From the IMG/VR virus record IMGVR_UViG_3300033143_008306, positions 1 to 20,431 of that record: a DNA stretch of 20,431 nt; one strand, written 5' to 3'. Made by a program: the position numbers and the translations under genes. The DNA comes from a virus. A model generated the notes under the pieces. It did not search any database and was not told where the DNA came from. It saw only the letters and a list, made by a program, of their open reading frames with translations. This document shows, in pieces, positions 1,565 to 19,869 of this stretch. Each line of letters starts with the position of its first letter. Positions within the stretch are counted from its first letter, which is position 1.

Positions 1565-1603
1565 GCTCCGGCCCGGGTTCGCCTGGGCCGGAGCTTTTTT
1601 TTT
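1565..1603 (+). terminator. Strong intrinsic terminator of the left operon
   Basis: GCTCCGGCCC (1565-1574) pairs with GGGCCGGAGC (1585-1594). The stem continues through GGG/CCT (one G-U) to a TTCG tetraloop at 1578-1581. Nine T residues follow (1595-1603). Confidence 0.92.
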
Positions 1604-1800
1604 GCTCTTTTCAAGAAACTTATTTTTAGGGCTCCCGACGATCCGAATTCGGCGTCGGTGAGTAAAGGGCACTCACTTCAAGCAGCGGAGGGCACGCTGC
1701 TCGACCTGGCAAAGAACGCCAGGCGACGTCGAATTCGGATCGTCGGGTTATTCCGGCTGGAGCCGGCCGGGACAACGCCCCGGTGGCGTAAGGAAAAGGG

Positions 1801-1831
1801 CTAACAGAATAAGTTCGGCGCTAGGGCGCCG
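1801..1831 (+). repeat. 31-nt direct repeat, copy 1 (motif plus hairpin)
   Basis: CTAACAGAATAAGTT is followed by CGGCGC-TAGG-GCGCCG. An identical copy lies at 1961-1991. A partial relative at 1932-1960 keeps AACAGAATAAGT but has a hairpin of different sequence (GTGC-TAATT-GCAC). Confidence 0.85.
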
Positions 1832-1960
1832 CCAACGACGGCGTTGGATCCCGCAACCTGCTGCCAGGTTGATCACCAATTATCGTGCGGAAGTCAGAAG
1901 ATCGGCCACAAGTGACTTCCGCCCGATAATAAACAGAATAAGTCTTGTGCTAATTGCACG

Positions 1961-1991
1961 CTAACAGAATAAGTTCGGCGCTAGGGCGCCG
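1961..1991 (+). repeat. 31-nt direct repeat, copy 2 (motif plus hairpin)
   Basis: Identical to 1801-1831 and exactly 160 nt downstream of it. Both copies are internal parts of the structured RNA region. Confidence 0.85.
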
Positions 1992-2060
1992 GGCACTCTG
2001 TAGGGAAGGGCACCTGCGGCAAATCCAGGGGGCCTACAAATCGAAGGCAGCCAGGGCCCG

Positions 2061-2180
2061 ACTTCTTCCTCATTACATCACTCATCCCTTCCTAGTCCCT
2101 ACATTTTCAAGTATAATGCCACTTCATCACATCCCGTTTTCACAGCCATCATTAACCGACTGCCTCACTCCTCCCAATAC
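2061..2180 (+). other. G-poor, pyrimidine-rich unstructured stretch
   Basis: About 120 nt with very few G residues on the plus strand, rich in C, T and A (for example CTTCTTCCTCATTACATCAC). There is no stem and no supported ORF. C-rich, G-poor, unfolded RNA is the usual character of a Rho loading region, which could end transcription of the structured RNA. That role is inference. TATAAT at 2112-2117 has no matching -35 box. Confidence 0.35.
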
Positions 2181-2225
2181 GAGGGAGATATGCATCATTA
2201 CATAGGGTGGCACTGCAGCAGTCTG

Positions 2226-2250
2226 ACACTCGGCTGAAAGAACGCCGTGT
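2226..2250 (+). other. Hairpin sharing a loop motif with the structured RNA
   Basis: CGGC (2231-2234) pairs with GCCG (2244-2247), and ACA (2226-2228) with TGT (2248-2250) around a two-base bulge. The 10-mer AAAGAACGCC (2237-2246), part loop and part 3' arm, is identical to 1711-1720 in the cloverleaf. The structured RNA may therefore extend to about 2260. Confidence 0.35.
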
Positions 2251-2325
2251 GGGCTAATAATAATAAAGAAGTCTGTATTCACCCCGCTCCTATATTAGAG
2301 CAACTTGTCGACTTTTTGACAGAAC

Positions 2326-2520
2326 AACCCAAGGCACCCAAAAACCCGAAGCTACAAGGCACCAAAAAACCCAAAACTTCAAGGAACCCAAGGCACCCAA
2401 AAACCCAAAGCTTCAAGGAACCCAAGGCACCCAAAAATCCAAAGCTTCAAGGAACCCAACGCGCCCAAAAACCCGAAGCTTCAAGGAACCCAAGGCACCC
2501 AAAAACCCGAAGCTTCTATA
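2326..2520 (+). repeat. 34-bp tandem repeat, six copies
   Basis: The unit is AACCCAAGGCACCCAAAAAC followed by CCRAAGCTTCAAGG. Copies lie at 2326-2359, 2360-2384 (lacks the first 9 nt), 2385-2418, 2419-2452, 2453-2486 and 2487-2520 (last bases diverged). 34 is not a multiple of 3, so successive units change reading frame. The ORF running through here therefore has cycling frames and is probably not translated. The plus strand is rich in A and C with few G residues. The function could be a protein-binding iteron array or a Rho loading region, neither shown. Confidence 0.85.
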
Positions 2521-2589
2521 AACTCAAAATCCTACGAACCCAACCCCCAAAAAATTTTCCACCAAATTTCGTCAGGGTTTGTAAACTCC

Positions 2590-2638
2590 GGTTATATTTT
2601 TTTGAATTTTGTTTTAAGGACCCGAACCCAAGGAGCAA
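2590..2638 (+). repeat. Duplicated 49-bp gene leader, copy 1
   Basis: It matches 2984-3032 at 43 of 49 positions. Both copies are AT-rich at the 5' side, continue into TTTAAGGAC and AACCCAAGGA, and lie 20-30 nt upstream of the start of a small gene. This suggests duplication of gene plus leader. Confidence 0.7.
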
Positions 2639-2657
2639 AACCCCCCTAAGGACCCTC

Positions 2658-2921
2658 ATGCCATCAAATCCATTTAAAGTCATATGCATCAACCAGGACA
2701 TCGAAGACGACGACAATTTTTCTTATCAGAACATGTTCCACAAGCTCAGGGTTTATACTTTTGTGTTAGAGCCCGACAATCAAGACAGATTTAATGGCAC
2801 GGTCTATATCCTTACCGAAGGCAGACTAAAAGGCAAATGGAAGGACATCCTTGTCTGGATCAGCGAGCCAGCTCTCAGGGACAACTTCAGGATCCTGTCC
2901 GACGTGCCCAAGGAGCCTTAG
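2658..2921 (+). CDS. Small beta-barrel-like protein, paralog A
   Basis: 87 residues from ATG 2658, with TAAGGA five bases before it. The open frame extends upstream to 2247 but crosses the 34-bp repeats, which change frame, so the short start is preferred. The pattern is MPSNPFKVICIN, a central KLRVYTFVLE, a G-containing turn, and a C-terminal IxxxxxxxNFRIL. This matches 3062, 3328, 5479, 6411 and 6718 in order and spacing of hydrophobic strands. It is like the many short phage proteins expected to fold as SH3-type barrels. It ends in PKEP, encoded by the recurring CCCAAGGAGCC motif. Function unknown. Confidence 0.65.
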   Translation: MPSNPFKVICINQDIEDDDNFSYQNMFHKLRVYTFVLEPDNQDRFNGTVYILTEGRLKGKWKDILVWISEPALRDNFRILSDVPKEP

Positions 2922-2983
2922 GTTCCAGCGCAGCCTCAGGCCCTCCGCAACCTCGGGGCAAAGCATACGGCCCACTATTTTCT

Positions 2984-3032
2984 GGTTATATTTTTACGAA
3001 TTTTGATTTAAGGACTCAAACCCAAGGACCAA
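2984..3032 (+). repeat. Duplicated 49-bp gene leader, copy 2
   Basis: Counterpart of 2590-2638 with six differences. It lies upstream of the second small beta-barrel-like gene. Confidence 0.7.
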
Positions 3033-3061
3033 CAAAGCCCAAGGAGCCCTATGAGCACCAC

Positions 3062-3322
3062 ATGCCAGTAAACCATCTACCCATAGGCCAGGCAATATGT
3101 GTAAAAAACATACCCAGGGCAGGCTCGACCATCAAGCCCGGCGATTATACGGTTTGCAAGGTCTATAATTTATACGAACTATCTCCCAGCTTCAGGCACC
3201 ACGCAGGATCTGACGCTGTCTATACATACAGGATCCCGGGCAACACCGGCAAAAGAATGCACATAGCAGACTTTCACTTTAAGGATATGTTCAGAATTCT
3301 ATGGCTATCAAAATCGACATAA
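3062..3322 (+). CDS. Small beta-barrel-like protein, paralog B
   Basis: 86 residues from ATG 3062. Strand pattern: QAICVKNIP, then KPGDYTVCKVYNLYEL, then VYTYRIPGNTGK, then IADFHFKDMFRIL. It aligns well by eye with the 5479 gene (AICKKIP, GKFTLCRIYEYNL, NTGQTIFINHFNKWF), so the two are paralogs. AAGGAG at 3041-3046 is 15 nt from this ATG but only four from ATG 3051, which opens a six-residue ORF (MSTTCQ) ending at 3071 and overlapping this start. Translation may therefore be coupled through that mini-ORF. Function unknown. Confidence 0.7.
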   Translation: MPVNHLPIGQAICVKNIPRAGSTIKPGDYTVCKVYNLYELSPSFRHHAGSDAVYTYRIPGNTGKRMHIADFHFKDMFRILWLSKST

Positions 3323-3327
3323 AAACC

Positions 3328-3612
3328 ATGCCTCCCTCCGGGCACCTGGTATGCAGAACCAACACATATATCCCCGACGTTCACCTAAACCGGAACCCGT
3401 CGGATTCTTCACACCAGCGCATATTCGCCAAGCCTATCCGCGTGTACCCGTATAAAAAGAACAAAAACGGGATTGTCATGATAATGAGGAAGAGTCTTGA
3501 TCCTGATATCGAGGATTACCAGGTCCCGGTCACGGAAGAGATCCTGACAAAATGCTTTGGGCTCCTGGATCCCGAGGCGCCCGAGGACCCCGAGGACCCC
3601 AAGGCCCTATGA
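3328..3612 (+). CDS. Small beta-barrel-like protein, paralog C
   Basis: 94 residues from ATG 3328; the frame also offers ATG 3301. The shorter start is preferred because it gives MPPSGHLVCRTN, parallel to MPSNPFKVICIN and MPVNHLPIGQAIC in the two genes before it. It also lies five bases after the upstream stop, which fits reinitiation. The later pattern is PIRVYPYKKNKNGIVMIM, then a C-terminal ILTKCFGLL. The tail PEAPEDPEDPK is low-complexity, made by CCCAAGGA-like repeats that also form the next gene's ribosome binding site. The stop overlaps the next start (ATGA). Confidence 0.65.
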   Translation: MPPSGHLVCRTNTYIPDVHLNRNPSDSSHQRIFAKPIRVYPYKKNKNGIVMIMRKSLDPDIEDYQVPVTEEILTKCFGLLDPEAPEDPEDPKAL

Positions 3613-4181
3613 TCAACAAATTCCGCACCACTCTCATGCTGATCATGGCTATAATCACGATCATGGGGATTGTGACATTCTCGCTCTTTATCCTGGAAGA
3701 GGCCATGCAGACGGTAATGTTCGGCACCTGGCCGGCCCAGGACGCCAACGATTGGGGACTGGTCCTCAAGGGTGTCGACACGAACCGTAAGATCAACCGA
3801 ACTCTTAGGGTGATGACCTACACCTGCGGCTGGATACAGCCGTTTGCTTTTGTGGCTTATCGGCAGTATGCGATCTCCATGGACTATTATATCGAAGCCC
3901 TCGAAGCCAAGATCCTGACCAAGGCCCCCGAGGTTATGATGGGCCGGAAGCTTTCGATAAACTTCGCCCCTCGGAGTTCGACGCAGCTCAAGCCCGACGA
4001 CTCAACGCAGCCTCAGGCCCTAAGCCCGACGCATCCTCGGGCCCCTCGGTTCCTGCTCCGCATGGGCCGGCTGCATCTAATTTCGAACAGCGCCAACCTG
4101 GCGCCCAGACAGATTGAAGGCGAGCTTCATATGATCGGCAAAAAGATCTACCTGATGCCCAACGAACCGAAAGGACCCTAA
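3609..4181 (+). CDS. Membrane-anchored hypothetical protein, 190 aa
   Basis: 190 residues. The N-terminal membrane helix at about 9-30 (LMLIMAIITIMGIVTF) is followed by a conserved-looking soluble part with FGTWPAQDANDWGLVL and a second fairly hydrophobic stretch at about 75-90. A low-complexity proline-rich segment (about residues 120-145) is encoded by GC-rich short repeats, part of which is shared with 2929-2944. The start at 3609 is supported by AAGG five bases upstream and ATGA overlap with the previous stop. Topology is probably N-in with a cytoplasmic or periplasmic domain. Function unknown. Confidence 0.8.
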   Translation: MINKFRTTLMLIMAIITIMGIVTFSLFILEEAMQTVMFGTWPAQDANDWGLVLKGVDTNRKINRTLRVMTYTCGWIQPFAFVAYRQYAISMDYYIEALEAKILTKAPEVMMGRKLSINFAPRSSTQLKPDDSTQPQALSPTHPRAPRFLLRMGRLHLISNSANLAPRQIEGELHMIGKKIYLMPNEPKGP

Positions 4182-5478: not shown

Positions 5479-5694
5479 ATGCTCGCAATCTGCAAAAAAA
5501 TTCCGGTCAAAGCTAAGCAAAAAAATAAAACCCGAAATGGATTGCCGCATGGAAAATTCACTCTATGCAGGATATATGAGTATAATTTAAATAAATCTAA
5601 TTATGGCGAAAGGGTTGATTATTTTTTTACAGATAACACGGGCCAAACAATATTCATCAATCACTTCAACAAATGGTTCGCGGCGATAGTGTAA
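5479..5694 (+). CDS. Small beta-barrel-like protein, paralog D, overlapping a tRNA
   Basis: 71 residues. It matches paralog B: AICKKIP; GKFTLCRIYEYNL; VDYFFTDNTGQTIFINHFNKWF. The gene is clearly more AT-rich than its upstream neighbours, which suggests a different origin or drift. No strong ribosome binding site is visible; ATG 5479 lies two bases after the previous stop, so reinitiation is likely. Its last 15 nt, including the stop, are also the first 15 nt of the tRNA at 5680-5753. Function unknown. Confidence 0.65.
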   Translation: MLAICKKIPVKAKQKNKTRNGLPHGKFTLCRIYEYNLNKSNYGERVDYFFTDNTGQTIFINHFNKWFAAIV

Positions 5695-6746: not shown

Positions 6747-6942
6747 AAAAGGCGTAAATCATAAGCATCGATCAAGAAAAGGTAGGATTCTGACAAGGTT
6801 CAAGCTTTATGATATAGAAAAATTAGAATACGACATATTCAACAAAGAAAACGAACTGATCATGTACCTAACTTTTGATAATTTCAACGAGATATATATA
6901 ATGACGCAAAAAGAATACAACAAACGATTCAGGAGATTCTAA
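6718..6942 (+). CDS. Small beta-barrel-like protein, paralog F
   Basis: 74 residues. Pattern: FKALCKKGVNHKH, then KGRILTRFKLYDIEKL, then ELIMYLTFDNFNEIYIM, similar in order to paralogs D and E. It overlaps the previous gene by 29 nt, and GAAAGAAG upstream is a weak ribosome binding site. It is the last gene of the AT-rich patch. Function unknown. Confidence 0.65.
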   Translation: MSENFKALCKKGVNHKHRSRKGRILTRFKLYDIEKLEYDIFNKENELIMYLTFDNFNEIYIMTQKEYNKRFRRF

Positions 6943-6972
6943 ACCCCCCATGGACACAAAAAGGAGAAGTAC

Positions 6973-7992
6973 ATGAAGCCAAGCGAAGTGTCGACTGTTT
7001 TACGATATGCGATCAAAGACAAACTGAACGTGCTCATCAAGGGCAAACCCGGGATCGGCAAAACAGACCTGGTGAAACAGGCTGCAAAAGCCGCCGAGGC
7101 CGAGCTGATCATAAGCCACCCGGTTGTGTCGGACCCGGTCGATTACAAAGGCATGCCGGCTATCATCGAGACAAAAACAGGAGAGAAAATAGCCGTCTTT
7201 CTGCCGTTTGGCGACCTGAAGAAGATCGTGGATGCCGACGGGCTGACGATATTCTTCATGGATGATCTTGGCCAGGCGCCCCCGGCTGTCCAGGCGGCTG
7301 CAATGCAACTATTGCTTGCTCGACGAATCAACGAGCACAAGGTGTCCGACCATGTCTGTTTCATGGCTGCGACAAACAACAAAACAGACAAAGCCGGTGT
7401 CTCCGGTATTCTCGAGCCCGTGAAATCAAGGTTTGCGTCAATCATCGCCCTCGAGGTAGATCTCGAGGATTGGATTACCTGGGCCATCAATTCCAAAAGA
7501 ATTCCGACTGAATTGATTGCCTTCATGAGATTCCGGCCGAACCTGCTCGATGATTTTCATCCCACGGCGGATCTCACAAATTCGTCATGTCCAAGAACGG
7601 TAGAACATGTAGCAAGATGGATGAATGCTGGAATCCCAAAGTCGTATGAATTCGAAGTATTCTCGGGAGCGGCCGGCGAAGGGTTTGCTGCTGAAATCAT
7701 ATCGTTCCTGCAGATCTTCAGGAGTTTGCCGAATCCGGTGACCATCTTGATGGATCCAGAGGGGGCTGCGGCAATTATTCCTGAAGAACCCAGCGCAAAA
7801 TACGCGATATGCGGCGCCATCGCAGCCAGGGCGTCGGAACAAAACATGAAGAACGTCGTTAAATATGCCAACCGCATGCCTGAGGAGTTCTCGGTCTTGA
7901 TGCTGAGGGACTGTATCAACAACAACCCGGACACGGCAAACACGGATGCCTTCATTGAATGGGCGTCATTGCATAAAGACGTCCTGATATAA
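6973..7992 (+). CDS. MoxR-family AAA+ ATPase
   Basis: 339 residues. Walker A is GKPGIGKT (24-31). The Walker B-type FFMDDLGQAPP region (94-104) has D97-D98, sensor 1 is around N135-N136 in MAATNN, and an arginine-finger candidate R153 lies in VKSRF. The gap between Walker motifs and the GQAPPAVQAA segment are MoxR-like. MoxR ATPases usually act with a VWA-domain protein to remodel or load cofactors into target complexes. Such a VWA protein is encoded five genes downstream (10006), so a working pair is likely. Strong AAGGAG before ATG 6973. It starts a new, more GC-rich gene block after the AT-rich patch. Target unknown. Confidence 0.9.
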   Translation: MKPSEVSTVLRYAIKDKLNVLIKGKPGIGKTDLVKQAAKAAEAELIISHPVVSDPVDYKGMPAIIETKTGEKIAVFLPFGDLKKIVDADGLTIFFMDDLGQAPPAVQAAAMQLLLARRINEHKVSDHVCFMAATNNKTDKAGVSGILEPVKSRFASIIALEVDLEDWITWAINSKRIPTELIAFMRFRPNLLDDFHPTADLTNSSCPRTVEHVARWMNAGIPKSYEFEVFSGAAGEGFAAEIISFLQIFRSLPNPVTILMDPEGAAAIIPEEPSAKYAICGAIAARASEQNMKNVVKYANRMPEEFSVLMLRDCINNNPDTANTDAFIEWASLHKDVLI

Positions 7993-12438: not shown

Positions 12439-13934
12439 TCTTTTCCAGACGATGAATCATTTTCCTCATTCTCTTCGTCATCCCCACTCCCAGACTCTTC
12501 AGCCTTTGCAGTTTCAATCTCTTTCTCTATAAGCTTGGTATCCGTATCAGACAAATCAGGTAAGGCTATCTTGGCCAACTGTTTTTGAGCACGACGTGCA
12601 AAGGTGTCACTCTGGACGGTATTCATGGTGCTGATAATATTCTCAAGGTTTATAGACAGATCGTCTATCGAGAAATGCAAAGACCTGGTAATTTCCATCT
12701 CTTTAAACAATTCTTCTTTCCCCTGCCACTTCAGCCACAGCCTGATTACGTTAAGCTCGGACTCCAGCATATTGCTGCTTTTCTGAAGCAAGACACTGTT
12801 TAACTGCTGAAATTCATACCTCAAAGCCAACCCCGAAGATACTTCGTTATTACTCTTCCGTTGCCCGTGAACCCCAGAAAGATGAGCAATCCGATACGTC
12901 TCATCGACTTTACGGTCGATCCATCTCAGCACGGCATCAATCGGTTCTGATATGGCAGCCTCCATCCAATCGGGCTTTGAATGCGGCAGATCCGGATAAA
13001 ATTCTTTGACGGCCCGCTGGCCGACCTTCTCTTCAGGGGCACTGTCATCTCCTTCTTTACGCATTGGTACTCGCAACATCGGAAAACCGGCGAACTTGAT
13101 GACCTCTTCGCCATGCGATAGGTTCCTGATAATGCTGCCTGTAATATACGAAATTTCACGAATATCAGAAATGCCGATATAGGCATTATAGATATTCTTG
13201 ATATTCGGCATCCAGACAAACGGAATTTCATTCAACGGGTTTGGCCCGGAATCAACAAGCGTTGCCTTTTCTTTTGCATTCTTTGCCTTCCCAGCTATCA
13301 ACCCACCAGTTAAAGGCTCGGTTAATGAGTCTCCATCCGGCAATTCCCATACTTCCCACTTCGTTTTTTCCCAGATGGTAAATCGACCAGATTCTGCTTC
13401 TTTTAGTTTCAAATACACAAGTACCGGCCTATTGTTTATTTTATCCCGCTCAAACCGCCAGTCATAAATATTAGAAAGGGTGTATGTGCTGCAATACGGA
13501 TATATGCCGTTGTCTATTTCCTGCTGAACATTCTGCGTTTTTAAATTTGCCTTGCTAATAAGCACCCCGACGGATCCATAAACAGACGAAACCTTTTGGG
13601 TATTGTTCAAATAAGTGTCAAAATCAGTACCGACCAGATCGGCATCTTTTTCAAACATTTTCCACTGAGCATCGTCTTCAAGACCCTTCAGATGCCGTTG
13701 CGGAGAACGCTCTGTCAGATAAAAACTGAACAGGTCGACAATAGCAGATGAATAATTAAAACAGATACCTTCTGTTATTCTCAACGCATGATTTTTTTCA
13801 GATTCAAGATTGTGTCTCGTCAAAGAATTTCCTACAAAATCTCGCCCGCCATCGTATGCCATCCTGTAAAATTCCCACGATCCATAACTTTCGGTATGTA
13901 TTGTATGCTTTTTTTCAAGCTCTTCTCTGTTCAT
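12435..13934 (-). CDS. Phage portal protein
   Basis: 499 residues. Identified mainly from position directly after the terminase and from size and layout: an N-terminal helical region, a central domain with RYEFQQLNSVLLQKSSNMLE (a typical portal stem and crown region, about residues 390-410), and a very acidic, probably disordered C-terminus (GDDEENEEND). The portal forms the ring through which DNA enters the head and docks the terminase. The ribosome binding site GAGGAT lies before ATG 13934. It ends convergent with, and overlapping, the 12157 gene. No direct family motif was confirmed. Confidence 0.8.
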   Translation of the reverse strand: MNREELEKKHTIHTESYGSWEFYRMAYDGGRDFVGNSLTRHNLESEKNHALRITEGICFNYSSAIVDLFSFYLTERSPQRHLKGLEDDAQWKMFEKDADLVGTDFDTYLNNTQKVSSVYGSVGVLISKANLKTQNVQQEIDNGIYPYCSTYTLSNIYDWRFERDKINNRPVLVYLKLKEAESGRFTIWEKTKWEVWELPDGDSLTEPLTGGLIAGKAKNAKEKATLVDSGPNPLNEIPFVWMPNIKNIYNAYIGISDIREISYITGSIIRNLSHGEEVIKFAGFPMLRVPMRKEGDDSAPEEKVGQRAVKEFYPDLPHSKPDWMEAAISEPIDAVLRWIDRKVDETYRIAHLSGVHGQRKSNNEVSSGLALRYEFQQLNSVLLQKSSNMLESELNVIRLWLKWQGKEELFKEMEITRSLHFSIDDLSINLENIISTMNTVQSDTFARRAQKQLAKIALPDLSDTDTKLIEKEIETAKAEESGSGDDEENEENDSSSGKD

Positions 13935-13952: not shown

Positions 13953-16900
13953 TTATTTCCAGAATTTTGTTGATTTTCTCCGGACATATTTTGGCCTGGT
14001 GACCCACCGCAAGAATTGTGACGTCGAATCAACCATATCATCAAACTTACCAAATGGAAACTGAGCTATCTGGGTTTCATACGGAACCACCCAGTCACCA
14101 CGCTCAGGAATATACACTTTCCCGGCTTCAATGATCGGCGAAACCTCGCTCAACCTTACCTGCTTGTTCGCATCGGACTTAATGGCAATAACAGGAATTC
14201 TCGTATAACGCTGCAATTCTTGTATTAAACTCTGGCCACTGGCTTTGTCTTCAATAAGGACGACGACCTGGCCGGCATTAAATTTCATGCAGCGCTCGTA
14301 TTCGGCTATAACAGCTCGTTTAAGCTTTGGAAAAATCAGGCGTTTGTTTATGACATTCATGAGATAATATCGATCTTTAGCGACACCCCAGGTTGTACAG
14401 GCCGACGGATCGTTAATGTCCTGCTCTTTAAAGGCCGTATCCCATGAATTAACAATTTGATTTACCTTAGTGATTTTGCCATTATCGACGCTTGGTTTCA
14501 GGAACCTGCGATATTTTTCACCGGCAAATTTATTTTTGGGCGAGGTCATGTCAGGCATGATTGCATACTGCCAACTTTGATACGGATATTTTTTAAACCA
14601 TTCGATGTCGACAATCCCGCCACCTTCCGGCAGAGGTTGCTGCTGATACAATGCATTCCATTCCCGGGTGCCGATTGTCTTACGGATTCTGTCGAGGCGT
14701 TTGCGGCCGTATTTTGTTGGCCAGAGGGCATCGCCAATCTCACGGCCGATAACATCCCCGTCATCGTCAGCGATGGCCGGAAGGTCTAACACAGTCCAAT
14801 TTTCATGCTCGGCTTCATCAAGCAAAAACCCGGCAAGGTCATAAAAACTCCACCGGGTCATAATAACAATAATTGAATTATTATCCATAAGCCGGGTATA
14901 GGCTACGGCTTTGAACCAGTCTCGCAACTTGCGCTGGGCAACATCACTCTCGGCATCCTCGCGGCCTTTTGTGGGGTCGTCGATGATCAAGCAGTTATGG
15001 ACGAGTATTTCGTTTGCAAAGAAATTGTTTGTTCCTTCCACCTGGATGTCATAGACCGGGACTTCTCCACAGCGTATCTTTCGAACCGCCACATACCCTG
15101 TTCCAACCACAAAAAATGGATGGTCCCCGGTTGATTTGATTTTTTTACCGGATTTTGTACTAACTTCATAGATATCATCTTTTGATGAAACCATTGTGGC
15201 GACTATTTTCCTGAATTCCTGGGTTTTTAGATTTTCGTTCCACGATAATACTTCAATCTTTTCACCACTTCGCATCAATTCAACAAGCTTTTTAATTTCA
15301 AGAAAGCCACGGTCTGTTTCAATTTTTGTCAATGATGTCAGACAGTTAGCACCCCTCCCTGTGATTGCGCCACCAACACCAACCGAATAATACATGCCAT
15401 CCTGTTCGGTCGAGAATTTGTTGGCGCCTTTGCTGTCCTTGGATATTCGGCAGCCGCTGAAAACTTGCTGATGAAAAGCTGAAGTCAGCTGGTTTCTGAC
15501 CTTACGGCCGATATCATTTGCACGGTCGAATGAATAGGTTGTACCGATAATATGACGACTTGGATTACGCCCAAGGTACCAGGCTGGAAAGTATTCTGAA
15601 GCGATGAGGGTATTATGTGACACGAAACCATTTACAATAAAATTCTGGGTTCCTGACACTTGAATATGGACGAGTTTTTTTATCCCAGCATCTTCAATTT
15701 TAATAACTCGATCATATATGAAATCCATTTCAAGATATTTTTGAAGTTCGGGATAGACTTTTGCCAAACGCTGCATTCTGCTTTGCGATATATTTTTGCT
15801 ATTGTCACACCTGAATCCGTTCTTTCTGGCACGACGCAACGTTTTACCTATTGCATTCGGAAACACATCAGTCAAACTACAGGATGCCTTCTTTAACAGT
15901 TCCTTGCAGAATTTCTTTTTATTACCAAGATCACATCTATTATAAATTTTTTGAAGCTGGCTTCTGCCGATATTTAATACCCATGCATTCGAACAATCAT
16001 TAGGTTTAAAAGTCTTAGATGCCACAATGCCACTCATAGATAACAACGTTTGAATATCCTCTATAAGCTCCTTGTTTGCCAAGGTTACTCCAGCTGATCC
16101 TGCTTTCATACAAAAATATCCATCGGTTTGGAACATGATCCCGATGAATATAAATTTTTGTCTTAACGACATCTTAAAAAATTCTTGAGGCAGGCGTTTG
16201 GAAGTAGCCTTATGGCCAAGAATTCCATATTTTTCAAGGATTGGTCGAGCTTCAAAGCTTACATTATAATCACAACTGTTTTTTGAAGGAGGTTGTCTAA
16301 CTGAAATACCAAGGGCATTCGATGCTTTTACGAAATTATTGATAACATATTTATCGCCATTGGAAAAACCCAACGAACTCGTTGAACAAGCTCCTTCAAA
16401 AATCATGTTAGCGATAAAAATAAGTTCATTATCATCTATTTCATAATCAAAATCCATTTCTTTATGAATGGTTAATAAAAAATCACCTATCTTAAATTCT
16501 TCAGCTTTTTTATAGGCATTTTGATAATCGGCGTAGGCAAGCATAGGATGGTCATGGCTGACGGTTACGGTTCGCCCGGTTCTGGATGTAAGACTAAGGC
16601 TTTGTTTCCGTGTAAACTCTTTTCCTAAAACTTCTTGAGTAACAAGCTTACCGTTGTCATAGGATAAAAGCTTGTCTCCGACCTTTATGTCGCCCATTTT
16701 AACGACAGATCCATCGGCCATATGAGCTAAGTCATTGATATCGCAGCACTTCCCATGCCGCGGCGGCATGAAGATCATAAGCCGACTTATATCTCCACGC
16801 TCCACTGCTTCGAGATGATTGGCTATAAGCTGATGATGCTTCGAAATTTCATACCCATCCCACTGCAATCTGACATAAGAAAGCAAACAACTGTGGGCGG

Positions 16901-16964
16901 CGTCTTCAACCGACAAATCTTTACCCTGAGATTCATTGGTCGCAACCATCTTGGTTCTGGCCAT
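13953..16964 (-). CDS. terL: Terminase large subunit with two inteins
   Basis: 1003 residues as encoded, about 507 after removal of two inteins. The exteins carry a Walker A-type PPRHGK-T (67-72 joined to 452), the Walker B region LIIDDPTKG (659-667), a coupling-motif-like MTRW (702-705), and the nuclease acids D842 (SWDTA), D906 (IEDKASG) and D975/D979 (FDDMVDS). This is the ATPase-plus-nuclease motor that cuts and pumps DNA into the head. Intein 1 covers residues 73-451 and intein 2 residues 541-657. Activity should require both splicing events. The start follows AAAGGA, a few bases after the small subunit stop. Confidence 0.95.
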   Translation of the reverse strand: MARTKMVATNESQGKDLSVEDAAHSCLLSYVRLQWDGYEISKHHQLIANHLEAVERGDISRLMIFMPPRHGKCCDINDLAHMADGSVVKMGDIKVGDKLLSYDNGKLVTQEVLGKEFTRKQSLSLTSRTGRTVTVSHDHPMLAYADYQNAYKKAEEFKIGDFLLTIHKEMDFDYEIDDNELIFIANMIFEGACSTSSLGFSNGDKYVINNFVKASNALGISVRQPPSKNSCDYNVSFEARPILEKYGILGHKATSKRLPQEFFKMSLRQKFIFIGIMFQTDGYFCMKAGSAGVTLANKELIEDIQTLLSMSGIVASKTFKPNDCSNAWVLNIGRSQLQKIYNRCDLGNKKKFCKELLKKASCSLTDVFPNAIGKTLRRARKNGFRCDNSKNISQSRMQRLAKVYPELQKYLEMDFIYDRVIKIEDAGIKKLVHIQVSGTQNFIVNGFVSHNTLIASEYFPAWYLGRNPSRHIIGTTYSFDRANDIGRKVRNQLTSAFHQQVFSGCRISKDSKGANKFSTEQDGMYYSVGVGGAITGRGANCLTSLTKIETDRGFLEIKKLVELMRSGEKIEVLSWNENLKTQEFRKIVATMVSSKDDIYEVSTKSGKKIKSTGDHPFFVVGTGYVAVRKIRCGEVPVYDIQVEGTNNFFANEILVHNCLIIDDPTKGREDAESDVAQRKLRDWFKAVAYTRLMDNNSIIVIMTRWSFYDLAGFLLDEAEHENWTVLDLPAIADDDGDVIGREIGDALWPTKYGRKRLDRIRKTIGTREWNALYQQQPLPEGGGIVDIEWFKKYPYQSWQYAIMPDMTSPKNKFAGEKYRRFLKPSVDNGKITKVNQIVNSWDTAFKEQDINDPSACTTWGVAKDRYYLMNVINKRLIFPKLKRAVIAEYERCMKFNAGQVVVLIEDKASGQSLIQELQRYTRIPVIAIKSDANKQVRLSEVSPIIEAGKVYIPERGDWVVPYETQIAQFPFGKFDDMVDSTSQFLRWVTRPKYVRRKSTKFWK
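14994..15344 (-). other. Intein 2 of terminase: mini-intein before Walker B
   Basis: Residues C541-N657 of the terminase (117 aa). It starts with C541, has the block B motif T612-G-D-H615, and ends with VEGTNNFFANEILVHN; the next residue is C658. Joining N540 to C658 restores GRGAN-CLIIDDP, a continuous Walker B region. At this length there is no room for a homing endonuclease domain, and no LAGLIDADG or HNH motif is seen. Confidence 0.93.
15612..16748 (-). other. Intein 1 of terminase: full-length, in Walker A
   Basis: Residues C73-N451 of the terminase (379 aa). It begins CCDINDLAHMADGS and has block B T134-V-S-H137. The LAGLIDADG-type endonuclease has two motifs (about 183-191 with E190, and 273-282 with D281 in FQTDG), and it ends VSGTQNFIVNGFVSHN before T452. 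Joining K72 to T452 restores the P-loop GKT. Key splicing residues (C1, TxxH, HN, +1 Thr) are present, so it should be active in splicing. Confidence 0.93.
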
Positions 16965-16970
16965 CTGTTT

Positions 16971-17534
16971 TTAATCCTTTGTGCCATTTTTCGGGAATGG
17001 AAGTAACTTAGGATCGGACGATACGGTATTAAAGGCTGCCTCAAGGACACCATCGCGCTTTTTCTTGCTGATTTTCTCTACGGTATGGCTAATATTGACA
17101 TTCTTATCAGCATCAAGACCGTAAAGATCTATAACCTGCTTATATCCTTTGCGAATTTCCTCCCCCCACTTGGCCCCGGCAGACGGATTCTTTATTTCTT
17201 TCAAACGCATCCAGCAAAAATTTACATAATGCTGCAGGTTCATAGCCATACGCTCACGCTTTTCATCAACGCTATCGAGCGATTCTTTCCTGAGTAAGGC
17301 CATCAAGACTCTGATGTCATTATAAATAACGACATAGTTTACCTTAAGCATCTTAGCCATTTTATGAACAGCATACCCCTCAAGCATTAACTGGGATACC
17401 TGATAACGACGAACACGTATTTCGTACGCACGCCCTTTGTTCTTCGTGCTTCCGCCACCCGGTAAATCATACGGTCGATACCGGCTATAATCTTTCGGAT
17501 TCTCAATTTCGTTTCTACCATCATGAATTCCCAT
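16971..17534 (-). CDS. terS: Terminase small subunit
   Basis: 187 residues, directly upstream of the large subunit on the same strand. A basic N-terminus is followed by a helix-turn-helix of the terminase small subunit type (about 42-77: YQVSQLMLEGYAVHKMAKML, then YNDIRVLM). A helical oligomerisation region comes next, then a basic C-terminus with SKKKRDG. It recognises phage DNA and starts packaging with the large subunit. ATG 17534 has AGGATT upstream. It is the first gene of the leftward packaging operon, transcribed from the 17577-17612 region. Confidence 0.85.
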   Translation of the reverse strand: MGIHDGRNEIENPKDYSRYRPYDLPGGGSTKNKGRAYEIRVRRYQVSQLMLEGYAVHKMAKMLKVNYVVIYNDIRVLMALLRKESLDSVDEKRERMAMNLQHYVNFCWMRLKEIKNPSAGAKWGEEIRKGYKQVIDLYGLDADKNVNISHTVEKISKKKRDGVLEAAFNTVSSDPKLLPFPKNGTKD

Positions 17535-17576
17535 AATGAATCCTATCCAAAAATATAAAAAGATTTAAAAAACTTA

Positions 17577-17612
17577 TTGACATTCATTAAATAATTATTT
17601 AATCATTGTCAA
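17577..17612. promoter_or_regulatory. Overlapping divergent promoters on a 36-bp near-palindrome
   Basis: The arms 17577-17594 and 17595-17612 are inverted repeats matching at 16 of 18 positions. TTGACA occurs at 17577-17582 on the plus strand and again at 17612-17607 on the minus strand. Each has a TTTAAT 15 nt, or TAATCA/TAATGA 17 nt, downstream as a -10. Transcription could go right to the scaffold gene and left to the terminase genes. The symmetry also fits a dimeric regulator site. Confidence 0.6.
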
Positions 17613-17639
17613 GAGTTATATACTTTGGGTACCATGTCG

Positions 17640-17805
17640 GTATCAGTGAAAATGAAACACGGGGGTTCGCAAAGGCGGGCGGAACATGCGGTTGTTACAT
17701 GTGCGATGCATTAACATACTGCGGCGAGATGCCGGAAACCTGCTGAAAACTCGATGTCTCATGGCATTATAAAAACGGCGCGAGGCCGTATTGACGGGAG
17801 GTCAA
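17640..17805 (+). promoter_or_regulatory. Structured 5' leader of the scaffold-capsid operon
   Basis: About 200 nt of non-coding leader with pairing potential: ACATG/CATGT near 17690-17705, ATGCC/GGCAT near 17730-17767, GAGA/TCTC inside that, ACGGC-GCGAG-GCCGT at about 17775-17789, and TTGAC-GGGAG-GTCAA at 17791-17805. The last one displays the ribosome binding site GGGAGG in its loop. No known riboswitch class was recognised. Confidence 0.4.
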
Positions 17806-17809
17806 AACC

Positions 17810-18646
17810 ATGAAGCTCAAACTTGATGATGCAGGAAGCGTAGTTGTTAAGGACGGATTGCCGATTTATATCATGGACGATGGAAAGGAGCAGGCGTTCG
17901 ATGCCCCCGGAACATTGTTCAAGGTTAAAAGTTTAACCGAAGAGAAAGATCGGCACTTTGAAAAAGCATCAAAACTTCAGGTAAAGATCGACGACAGTGC
18001 CAAAGCGCTCAAAGTGTTTGAAGGCATTGATCCGGTAACCGCGAAAGCGGCACTGGAAACAGTCGAAAAGCTTGACGGCAAGAAGATGATCGATGCCGGA
18101 GAGTTCGATAAGCTGAAGGAACAGATGCAGGGTATCCAGGATACCAAACTTGCGGAGCAGGCCTCCGATTATGATAAAAAAATTGGAGACTTCGAAGTTC
18201 AGGTTGGTGCCCAGAAAAATACAATCGATAATTTGATGATAACATCCAACTTTGCCAAAAGTCCGCTCTTCTCGGGTGATAAGCCCAAGACGATTTTGAC
18301 CCCGGACATGGCGGTAAGCGCATTCGGCGGGAACTTCAAGGTCGAAGGCGATGGACTTACACCGAAATTGATTGGATACCTTAACGGAGAAAAAATTCCG
18401 TCCACCTCAAATGTCGGTGAACCAGCCGATTTCGAGGAAGCAATAGCCGTAATCATCGAAAAGCACCCCGGGAAAGAGCGGTTCCTGACTTCCCCGGACG
18501 GCGGAGGCCCCGGTGCCGGTAGCAATTTTAGCAGAGACGGTCGGGCCGTTGTGATTTCGGAAGAAGATGCACACAATGTAGTCAAATACAGAGAAGCACA
18601 AGCAAAAGCCGAAAAAGCAGGGGTTCCGATTCAAGTTGGTAATTAA
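17810..18646 (+). CDS. Capsid scaffold-like protein
   Basis: 278 residues. A small beta N-terminus with VVKDGLPIYIMDDGKEQAFD is followed by a long charged coiled-coil region (about 40-140) and a C-terminus with a glycine-rich GGGPGAGSNF segment and a terminal helix. The N-terminus resembles DUF6651-type phage proteins found just before coat genes; the coiled coil and position directly before the coat protein point to an assembly scaffold. GGGAGG ten bases before ATG supports the start. A 23-nt gap separates it from the coat gene. Confidence 0.75.
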   Translation: MKLKLDDAGSVVVKDGLPIYIMDDGKEQAFDAPGTLFKVKSLTEEKDRHFEKASKLQVKIDDSAKALKVFEGIDPVTAKAALETVEKLDGKKMIDAGEFDKLKEQMQGIQDTKLAEQASDYDKKIGDFEVQVGAQKNTIDNLMITSNFAKSPLFSGDKPKTILTPDMAVSAFGGNFKVEGDGLTPKLIGYLNGEKIPSTSNVGEPADFEEAIAVIIEKHPGKERFLTSPDGGGPGAGSNFSRDGRAVVISEEDAHNVVKYREAQAKAEKAGVPIQVGN

Positions 18647-18669
18647 TAACTTGTAAAGGAGACTTTAAA

Positions 18670-19869
18670 ATGGCGAATACAATCAGTCCTTATAACCCAA
18701 TTTTTTACGCTCAGGAAGGACTTAAGGTCCTCGAGAATGCGCTTGGCATGGCCAGTCGTGTTTACATGGGCTACGATTCCGAACGTAAATCGGCTAACAA
18801 AGGCGATACAATTCAGATCCGTAAGCCTGGAACTTTCAGTACCTCAACCGGTGGAACCTCCACCACGGCAAATGTTGTTCCGTCCAGCCTCGACCTGACA
18901 GTCGATACCTGGAAACAGGTAAAATTCGGCCTCACGGACAAAGAGCTGGCCTTCACAACCGAGAAAATCATTGCTGATCATATCAGCCCGGCGGTCTACG
19001 CGCTGGCAGTTGATATTGAGACCGCACTGACCAATCTTTATAAAGACGTTCCCTGGTCCTACGATATCGGTGCAACACCCGGATCGGCAGACATTATCGG
19101 CGGCAGGAAGATTCTGCGCGACAATGCCGGCGGACTCGTTGATTCCGATCTGATCCACTTCGGAATTGATTCCACCCTCGAAGCATCGTTCCTGAATGCC
19201 GAGATTTTCCATGCAGCCAGGATTGCAGGCGACGGTGAAAATAAAGACGCCCTTAAAAACGGCGGACTTGGCCAGCGTTTCGGGTGTGAACATTTCGTAC
19301 AGCAAACACTCACGAATCATACCTCAGGTACAGCGATTTCGGTAAAGACCGATCTCCTGGGTGCGGCCTCCGGAGTGCATGCACTCGGTGCAGAGAGTCT
19401 GACAGTCACGGCTCTTGGCGCATCGTCTTCAGCAATCGCCGAAACTCTGGTAGCTGGAGATAGTTTTTCCATTGCCGGCGATACCCAGCGCTACGCCGTA
19501 ACAGCAGGTGTAACTCTGACCGGTGGTTTGGGTACCATTTCCTTTACACCGCCCCTCAAGGTAGCCCTGACCGGAAGTGAAGTTGTTACACTGGAAACAG
19601 TTGATTCAACAAACTTCGCTGACAGGTTTTACGTAAACCTAATGTTTCACCGCAACGCATTTGCCATAGCCATGGCGCCACTGCCTGACCTTGGCAACAA
19701 TGCAGGAGCCCAGATGGCGGTTATCACCGATCCTCGAACCGGACTCTCCATGCGCTCAAGACTGGCGTACTACGATGAATCCGCAACGGTGAAAATCACT
19801 CTCGACGTTCTGTTCGGTGTGAAAACACTTGATCCGAACCTGGCTGTTGTATTACGACGGAATTATTAA
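18670..19869 (+). CDS. Major capsid protein, P22 coat type
   Basis: 399 residues. The N-terminus MANTISPYNPIFYAQEGLKV, the GDTIQIRKPGTF strand, the TWKQVKFGLTDKELAF segment and the end with YYDESATVKITLDVLFGVKTL are typical of P22 coat-type proteins (HK97 fold). A beta-rich region at about 225-310 (alanine-, glycine- and threonine-rich) fits an insertion domain. AAAGGAG precedes ATG 18670. It builds the icosahedral head with the preceding scaffold and is followed by two terminators, which fits high expression. No tail genes are visible in this window. Confidence 0.9.
   Translation: MANTISPYNPIFYAQEGLKVLENALGMASRVYMGYDSERKSANKGDTIQIRKPGTFSTSTGGTSTTANVVPSSLDLTVDTWKQVKFGLTDKELAFTTEKIIADHISPAVYALAVDIETALTNLYKDVPWSYDIGATPGSADIIGGRKILRDNAGGLVDSDLIHFGIDSTLEASFLNAEIFHAARIAGDGENKDALKNGGLGQRFGCEHFVQQTLTNHTSGTAISVKTDLLGAASGVHALGAESLTVTALGASSSAIAETLVAGDSFSIAGDTQRYAVTAGVTLTGGLGTISFTPPLKVALTGSEVVTLETVDSTNFADRFYVNLMFHRNAFAIAMAPLPDLGNNAGAQMAVITDPRTGLSMRSRLAYYDESATVKITLDVLFGVKTLDPNLAVVLRRNY

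Follow-up and report, generated by a model that had tools for sequence, protein, structure and literature searches.

ColE1 RNA I is a molecule of about 110 nt with three hairpins and loops of about 7 nt, and it has no 24-bp closing stem. At the level of DNA, long palindromes are usually unstable in bacteria. Among the structured RNAs encoded by phages, GOLLD and ROOL have Rfam profiles and are of unknown function, as described by Kretsch et al. (2025, PMC12286853). The locus reported here has likenesses to these systems and also departs from each of them. It lies in a stretch of 20,431 nt, hereafter the window, which corresponds to positions 1 to 20,431 of virus record IMGVR_UViG_3300033143_008306. 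The contig is a phage fragment, as judged from its portal (phrog_145), major head protein (phrog_283; 42–44% identical to those of Pseudanabaena phage Pan1 and of Dinoroseobacter phages), AAA ATPase (phrog_1297), DUF2201 protein and a terminase with an RNaseH-like domain and intein domains. The large subunit of this terminase (13953–16964) carries intein splicing and LAGLIDADG domains, plus a second Hint-like stretch. The element of interest is a noncoding cluster of hairpins of 457 nt on the coding strand, which opens with a four-arm junction and is directly preceded by a strong intrinsic terminator. Its features and those of its immediate surroundings are the following:

1565–1603, + strand: intrinsic terminator, 13-bp stem by scan, TTCG loop, 9 T (terminator scan)
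1606–2062, + strand: whole hairpin cluster (hairpin count, GC content, fold of 1550–2300)
1634–1747, + strand: four-way junction, or cloverleaf (folding, z −8.7)
1634–1657, + strand: closing stem, 5' arm (fold and inverted repeat)
1658–1676, + strand: hairpin 1, 6 bp, loop AAAGGGC (fold)
1681–1701, + strand: hairpin 2, 7 bp with 2 further bp beyond an A-C mismatch, loop GAGGGCA (fold)
1705–1723, + strand: hairpin 3, 6 bp, loop AAAGAAC (fold)
1724–1747, + strand: closing stem, 3' arm (fold and inverted repeat)
1751–1772, + strand: hairpin, 9 bp, 4-nt loop (fold)
1775–1789, + strand: hairpin, 5 bp, 5-nt loop (fold)
1800–1831, + strand: repeat copy 1, linker CTAACAGAATAAGT and hairpin 1816–1831 (direct repeat, fold)
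1832–1847, + strand: hairpin, 6 bp, 4-nt loop (perfect-hairpin scan)
1854–1871, + strand: hairpin, 7 bp, 4-nt loop (perfect-hairpin scan)
1879–1930, + strand: hairpin, 7 and 10 bp flanking one mismatch, 16-nt loop (inverted repeat, fold)
1932–1960, + strand: repeat copy 2, linker AACAGAATAAGT and a hairpin of differing sequence, 1946–1960 (repeat, fold)
1960–1991, + strand: repeat copy 3, 32 nt identical to copy 1, hairpin 1976–1991 (direct repeat, fold)
2330–2516, + strand: C/A-rich tandem repeats, 34-nt unit, in the gap between cluster and genes; membership in the element uncertain

The four-arm cloverleaf folding at 1634–1747 is real. The original prediction had placed here a four-way junction closed by a stem of 24 bp, and folding returns the same ends, with 1634–1657 paired with 1724–1747 through 24 pairs and zero unpaired bases. 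The two arms are 96% complementary at the DNA level and, since the sole exception is a G-U on the + strand, the stem is fully paired as RNA. Folded as RNA within 1624–1757, the junction attains −80.2 kcal/mol (z −8.7), and as none of 200 shuffles was equally stable, the claim that such a fold exceeds chance is substantiated. The closing stem also remains favoured over alternative folds in larger contexts, with a mean pair probability of 0.98 when 1606–2062 is folded and of 0.97 for 1540–2700. The three loops are indeed of 7 nt and of the sequences originally read; the attribution of 6 bp to every hairpin holds for hairpins 1 and 3, but hairpin 2 has 7 bp. The spacers between the elements of the junction measure 0, 4, 3 and 0 nt. 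Perfect hairpins with a 7-nt loop account for 3 of 3 in the junction versus 2 of 61 elsewhere in the window, a difference noticed post hoc. In a scan for long closing stems that enclose several branches the element is the clear extreme (24 bp with 3 branches), the runner-up place having 16 bp with 2 branches.

The remainder of the cluster is likewise rich in pairing. It contains 8 perfect hairpins with stems of 6 bp or more, compared with 1.1 on average and never more than 4 in 200 shuffles of the region and with a density of 3.1 per kb in the rest of the window, and its GC content is 0.57 versus 0.45 for the window. The fold of 1550–2300, which includes the terminator hairpin, has a z of −8.8, with 0 of 20 shuffles as stable. 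The linker AACAGAATAAGT occurs in three copies (1803, 1932 and 1963) that are identical at 12 of 12 bases, each with a hairpin after it; the hairpin of copy 2 differs in sequence from those of copies 1 and 3, yet is paired. A further element of the original prediction, the recurrence of GGGCAC, is correct as to positions 1991 and 2008, but the enrichment is not significant: the window holds 11 copies against 7.0 expected, a number reached by 7 of 100 shuffles, and the longer RAGGGCAC has 3 copies, all within the hairpin cluster region, against 0.83 expected, again reached by 7 of 100 shuffles. The motif part is therefore weak.

What is observed, then, is the fold, the crowding of hairpins, the repeated sequences and a location outside genes; that the element is transcribed and works as RNA is a further step, which we infer. 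Our tentative preference is to regard 1634 to about 2013 as an orphan structured noncoding RNA of the phage, of which the cloverleaf would be the 5' domain. In such an RNA, the cluster would be transcribed from the + strand after the terminator at 1565–1603, and the stems would provide a rigid framework that displays single-stranded sequence, namely the purine-rich 7-nt loops of the cloverleaf and the AACAGAAUAAGU linkers, three in number and each with a hairpin behind it. These loops and linkers are candidate binding sites, possibly for a protein, for other RNA or for the RNA itself. The interpretation is supported by the strand and terminator setting, by conserved linkers whose hairpins have changed and are still paired, by the regular loop size, by the density of perfect hairpins, by a closing stem whose one deviation is a + strand G-U and by the fact that the folds of both the junction and 1550–2300 far exceed their shuffles. 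A similar setting in a related locus (L027, see below), where a stretch that folds stably comes after a terminator-like hairpin, also argues for it.

Several results count against an RNA. There is a lone G-U among the 45 pairs of the junction, versus 11.5% in shuffled folds (across the cluster, 11 of 150 pairs are G-U); the scan listed no promoter-like site between the terminator and the closing stem and no + strand terminator-like site between 1603 and 3826; no convincing Rfam match was obtained; GGGCAC is not significantly enriched; and the minus strand folds as stably. In fact, the junction forms the same fold on the minus strand, at −77.0 versus −77.3 on the plus strand. Strand asymmetry in energy was dropped as a test for RNA, since tRNA controls, with minus/plus energy ratios of 1.04, 1.07 and 0.75, show no reliable strand difference.

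The scarcity of G-U suits at least as well an island of palindromes acting at the DNA level, which would either form cruciforms or single-strand folds with a role in replication, in recombination or in packaging, or simply persist because templates switch between its inverted repeats. We consider this possible, although somewhat doubtful: Watson-Crick pairs make up 44 of the 45 in the junction, the two strands fold equally and a covariance model of the junction matches both, the cluster has direct repeats of 34 nt beside it, and a related phage has nested near-perfect DNA palindromes at the matching place, with a long hairpin devoid of signs of selection at the RNA level. A cruciform, however, needs neither hairpins with 7-nt loops nor repeated unpaired linkers, and no initiator or recombinase was recognised among the nearby proteins that were tested. 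Nor is a replication origin indicated: A+T reaches only 62% at 2534–2640, and the inflection in GC skew is local, the change near 2000 reflecting a C-rich stretch in a window that is itself a fragment and the matching stretch of the related phage (39–43 kb in G005) being a drop confined to that part of a curve that rises elsewhere. With pairing almost all Watson-Crick and no homolog that would permit a covariation test, the DNA reading is nearly as good as the RNA reading, and because the evidence splits between the two the RNA is placed only slightly ahead.

Downstream of the cluster there is a C/T-rich stretch, then the C/A-rich tandem repeats and then a run of small genes. This arrangement bears on an explanation that we regard as unlikely, in which the cluster is part of a long structured 5' leader controlling the small-protein operon that starts at 2658. 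Such a leader would be on the same strand as the operon, with no + strand terminator-like site listed at 1603–3826 and about 650 nt separating the last clear hairpin from the start codon. That start codon is nonetheless far away, no leader or riboswitch of Rfam scored credibly, and the intervening long pyrimidine-rich and repeat stretch would be left unexplained. Family searches gave no assignment for the genes adjacent to the cluster, and a search for viral relatives of the protein encoded at 334–906 gave none. We also observed that short CCCAAGGA-like pieces are repeated ahead of start codons and within genes downstream of 2330–2516, and that many small neighbouring proteins in 2658–3612 of the window and in 14054–18982 of the related locus L015 are alike at their starts and ends, seemingly a paralogous set. 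In the intergenic gaps upstream of the cluster, hairpins at 288–310, 917–945 and 1156–1184 stand just ahead of a ribosome-binding-site-like AAAGGAG.

Sequence relatives of the element were found in none of the phages, plasmids or viral contigs searched. Loci for comparison were gathered through the AAA protein (L008–L011), the portal (L012–L013) and the protein encoded at 3612–4181, downstream of the cluster, which led to 11 loci on 10 contigs, 3 of them already known; by blastn the cluster is present in none of the relative loci compared. The covariance model of the junction, run on 22 sources (296,765 bases), retrieved only the copy of the window itself, hit on both strands, the next match being in L032 at E 3.3. 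A closing-stem 18-mer had 0 matches, and the 48 loci returned by a search for the linker-plus-CTA pattern showed no resemblance to the cluster other than the word searched for or another copy of the linker. The element was not found in print in a literature search that was not exhaustive.

These negative results bear also on the view that the junction is a miniature transposon, with terminal inverted repeats of 24 bp that pair as the closing stem. A unit of 114 bp with long inverted ends has the appearance of one, yet it is not flanked by a direct repeat (target-site duplication) of 2–9 nt, there is no second copy in the window and no match in the relatives, and we disfavour this view as highly improbable.

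The tandem 11-mer AACAGAATAAG, taken as two nearby copies, returned 35 bacterial and archaeal loci in a genome scan, several being coding repeats and others arrays that lie between genes at regular spacing, in Bacteroidetes and in further phyla. No relation to them is claimed, because the 11-mer alone is common to both and the scan selected for it. We estimate, there being no control genome scan, that an arbitrary tandem 11-mer would yield a similar number of loci from ordinary repeats. In viral contigs the true 11-mer had 4 loci versus 1 for a reversed control 11-mer, and none of the 4 was, by reading, in a comparable structured setting. An IS21-like or other transposon end, which the genome loci had suggested, was rejected; among the genes listed beside 17 of the 35, no transposase was evident by eye. 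Six loci (L084, L088, L091, L098, L109 and L113) are regular 32–33-nt arrays of TGTAACAGAATAAGG in Bacteroidetes, and the three proteins tested, near L084, L091 and L113, belong to AAA_14/DUF4143 or DUF4143.

A rather different scenario results from the comparison of the matching place in related phages. In two of them it holds long noncoding or palindromic islands of sequence unrelated to the cluster. The first, in G005 (L015, 12443–13908, contig IMGVR_UViG_3300017527_001400), consists of two adjacent hairpins of 422 nt (−274.6 kcal/mol) and 1,044 nt (−932.2 kcal/mol), built as nested near-perfect inverted repeats whose arms reach 182 nt; an open reading frame at 12826–13251 is partly overlapped by them. 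Given the usual instability of long palindromes, these giant hairpins from inverted duplication are remarkable. The 1,044-nt hairpin has 9 G-U pairs, 6 A-C and 11 other single mismatches, and no G-U bias was found in it as a sign of RNA selection; this is the pattern of a DNA duplication in decay, not that of an RNA under selection. The second, in L010 (1830–2640), is a long noncoding stretch with irregular repeats whose + strand is markedly poor in C; its fold has no unusual stability (z −1.7), which counts against a conserved fold at the site.

Other relatives are variable as well. L027, identical to L028 and L029 across their common length, has at 6800–7400, behind a terminator-like hairpin and just downstream of the shared protein, a stably folding noncoding stretch with a robust z of −6.6 on the minus and −5.5 on the plus strand; its Rfam matches are weak, mostly to microRNA families, and all far below gathering scores. 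The more distant L031 has no noncoding island upstream of the shared gene, and L008, whose AAA protein is 75% identical, is uninformative, as its contig ends about 475 nt before the shared protein. The cluster has in common with the islands 9 words of 9 nt in L015 (4.9 expected), 2 in L027 (2.2 expected) and 0 in L010 (1.7 expected), and no 11-mer with any of the three, so that shared words are at most modestly above chance. The matching site is thus unusual in several, not all, relatives, and the sequences are unrelated.

A rather unlikely reading of this variability is that the phages of this group carry, at one fixed position of the genome, a hairpin island that changes quickly and in which the fold, and not the sequence, is selected. 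Each phage would then keep an extreme, unrelated fold, perhaps including the L027 stretch, and several of these folds would carry 7-nt loops starting with AAA, such as AAAGGGC and AAAGAAC here and the apical loops AAACAGA (twice) and AAAAGCA in G005. The fold might serve, for example, as a decoy or scaffold in a contest with the host.

Returning to the preferred reading of an orphan structured RNA, comparison with the known kinds starts from tRNA, to which the junction had been likened. It resembles tRNA in having a closing stem and three arms with 7-nt loops, and differs in its 24-bp closing stem, versus an acceptor stem of about 7 bp, and its arms of 6, 7 and 6 bp. The tRNA-like reading is not supported and was rejected: neither ARAGORN nor Rfam RF00005 calls the junction, and the only tRNA that either finds in the whole window is a tRNA-Gly at 5680, 3.6 kb from the cluster, which is also the only Rfam match of the window at the gathering threshold. 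Extending the Rfam search of 1540–2700 up to E 5 added 3 poor matches (E at least 0.58), all far below gathering scores; none is convincing as a known RNA family, and the GOLLD and ROOL covariance models are not among them.

With GOLLD and ROOL, large ornate phage RNAs, the cluster shares being noncoding, several hundred nt long, rich in helices and phage-encoded. These RNAs are often near tRNA islands, and the cluster is on a phage contig with a single tRNA gene, 3.6 kb away; it differs from them in that distance, in its long perfect stems and in that no homologs were found. To ColE1 RNA I the junction is similar in size, in its three hairpins and in its loops of about 7 nt, and dissimilar in its closing stem; neither an antisense partner nor a replication primer is evident here. 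Long palindromes, cruciforms and interrupted inverted repeats share with the junction their long, nearly perfect inverted repeats, whereas the centre of the junction is formed by three perfect hairpins, with more hairpins after it. Under either reading the site is small and directly testable, given a host or a metatranscriptome. If it acts as DNA, it shows a group of phages retaining long palindromes at a single site; if it acts as RNA, it would join GOLLD and ROOL as one more large structured RNA of phages, belonging to none of the catalogued families.
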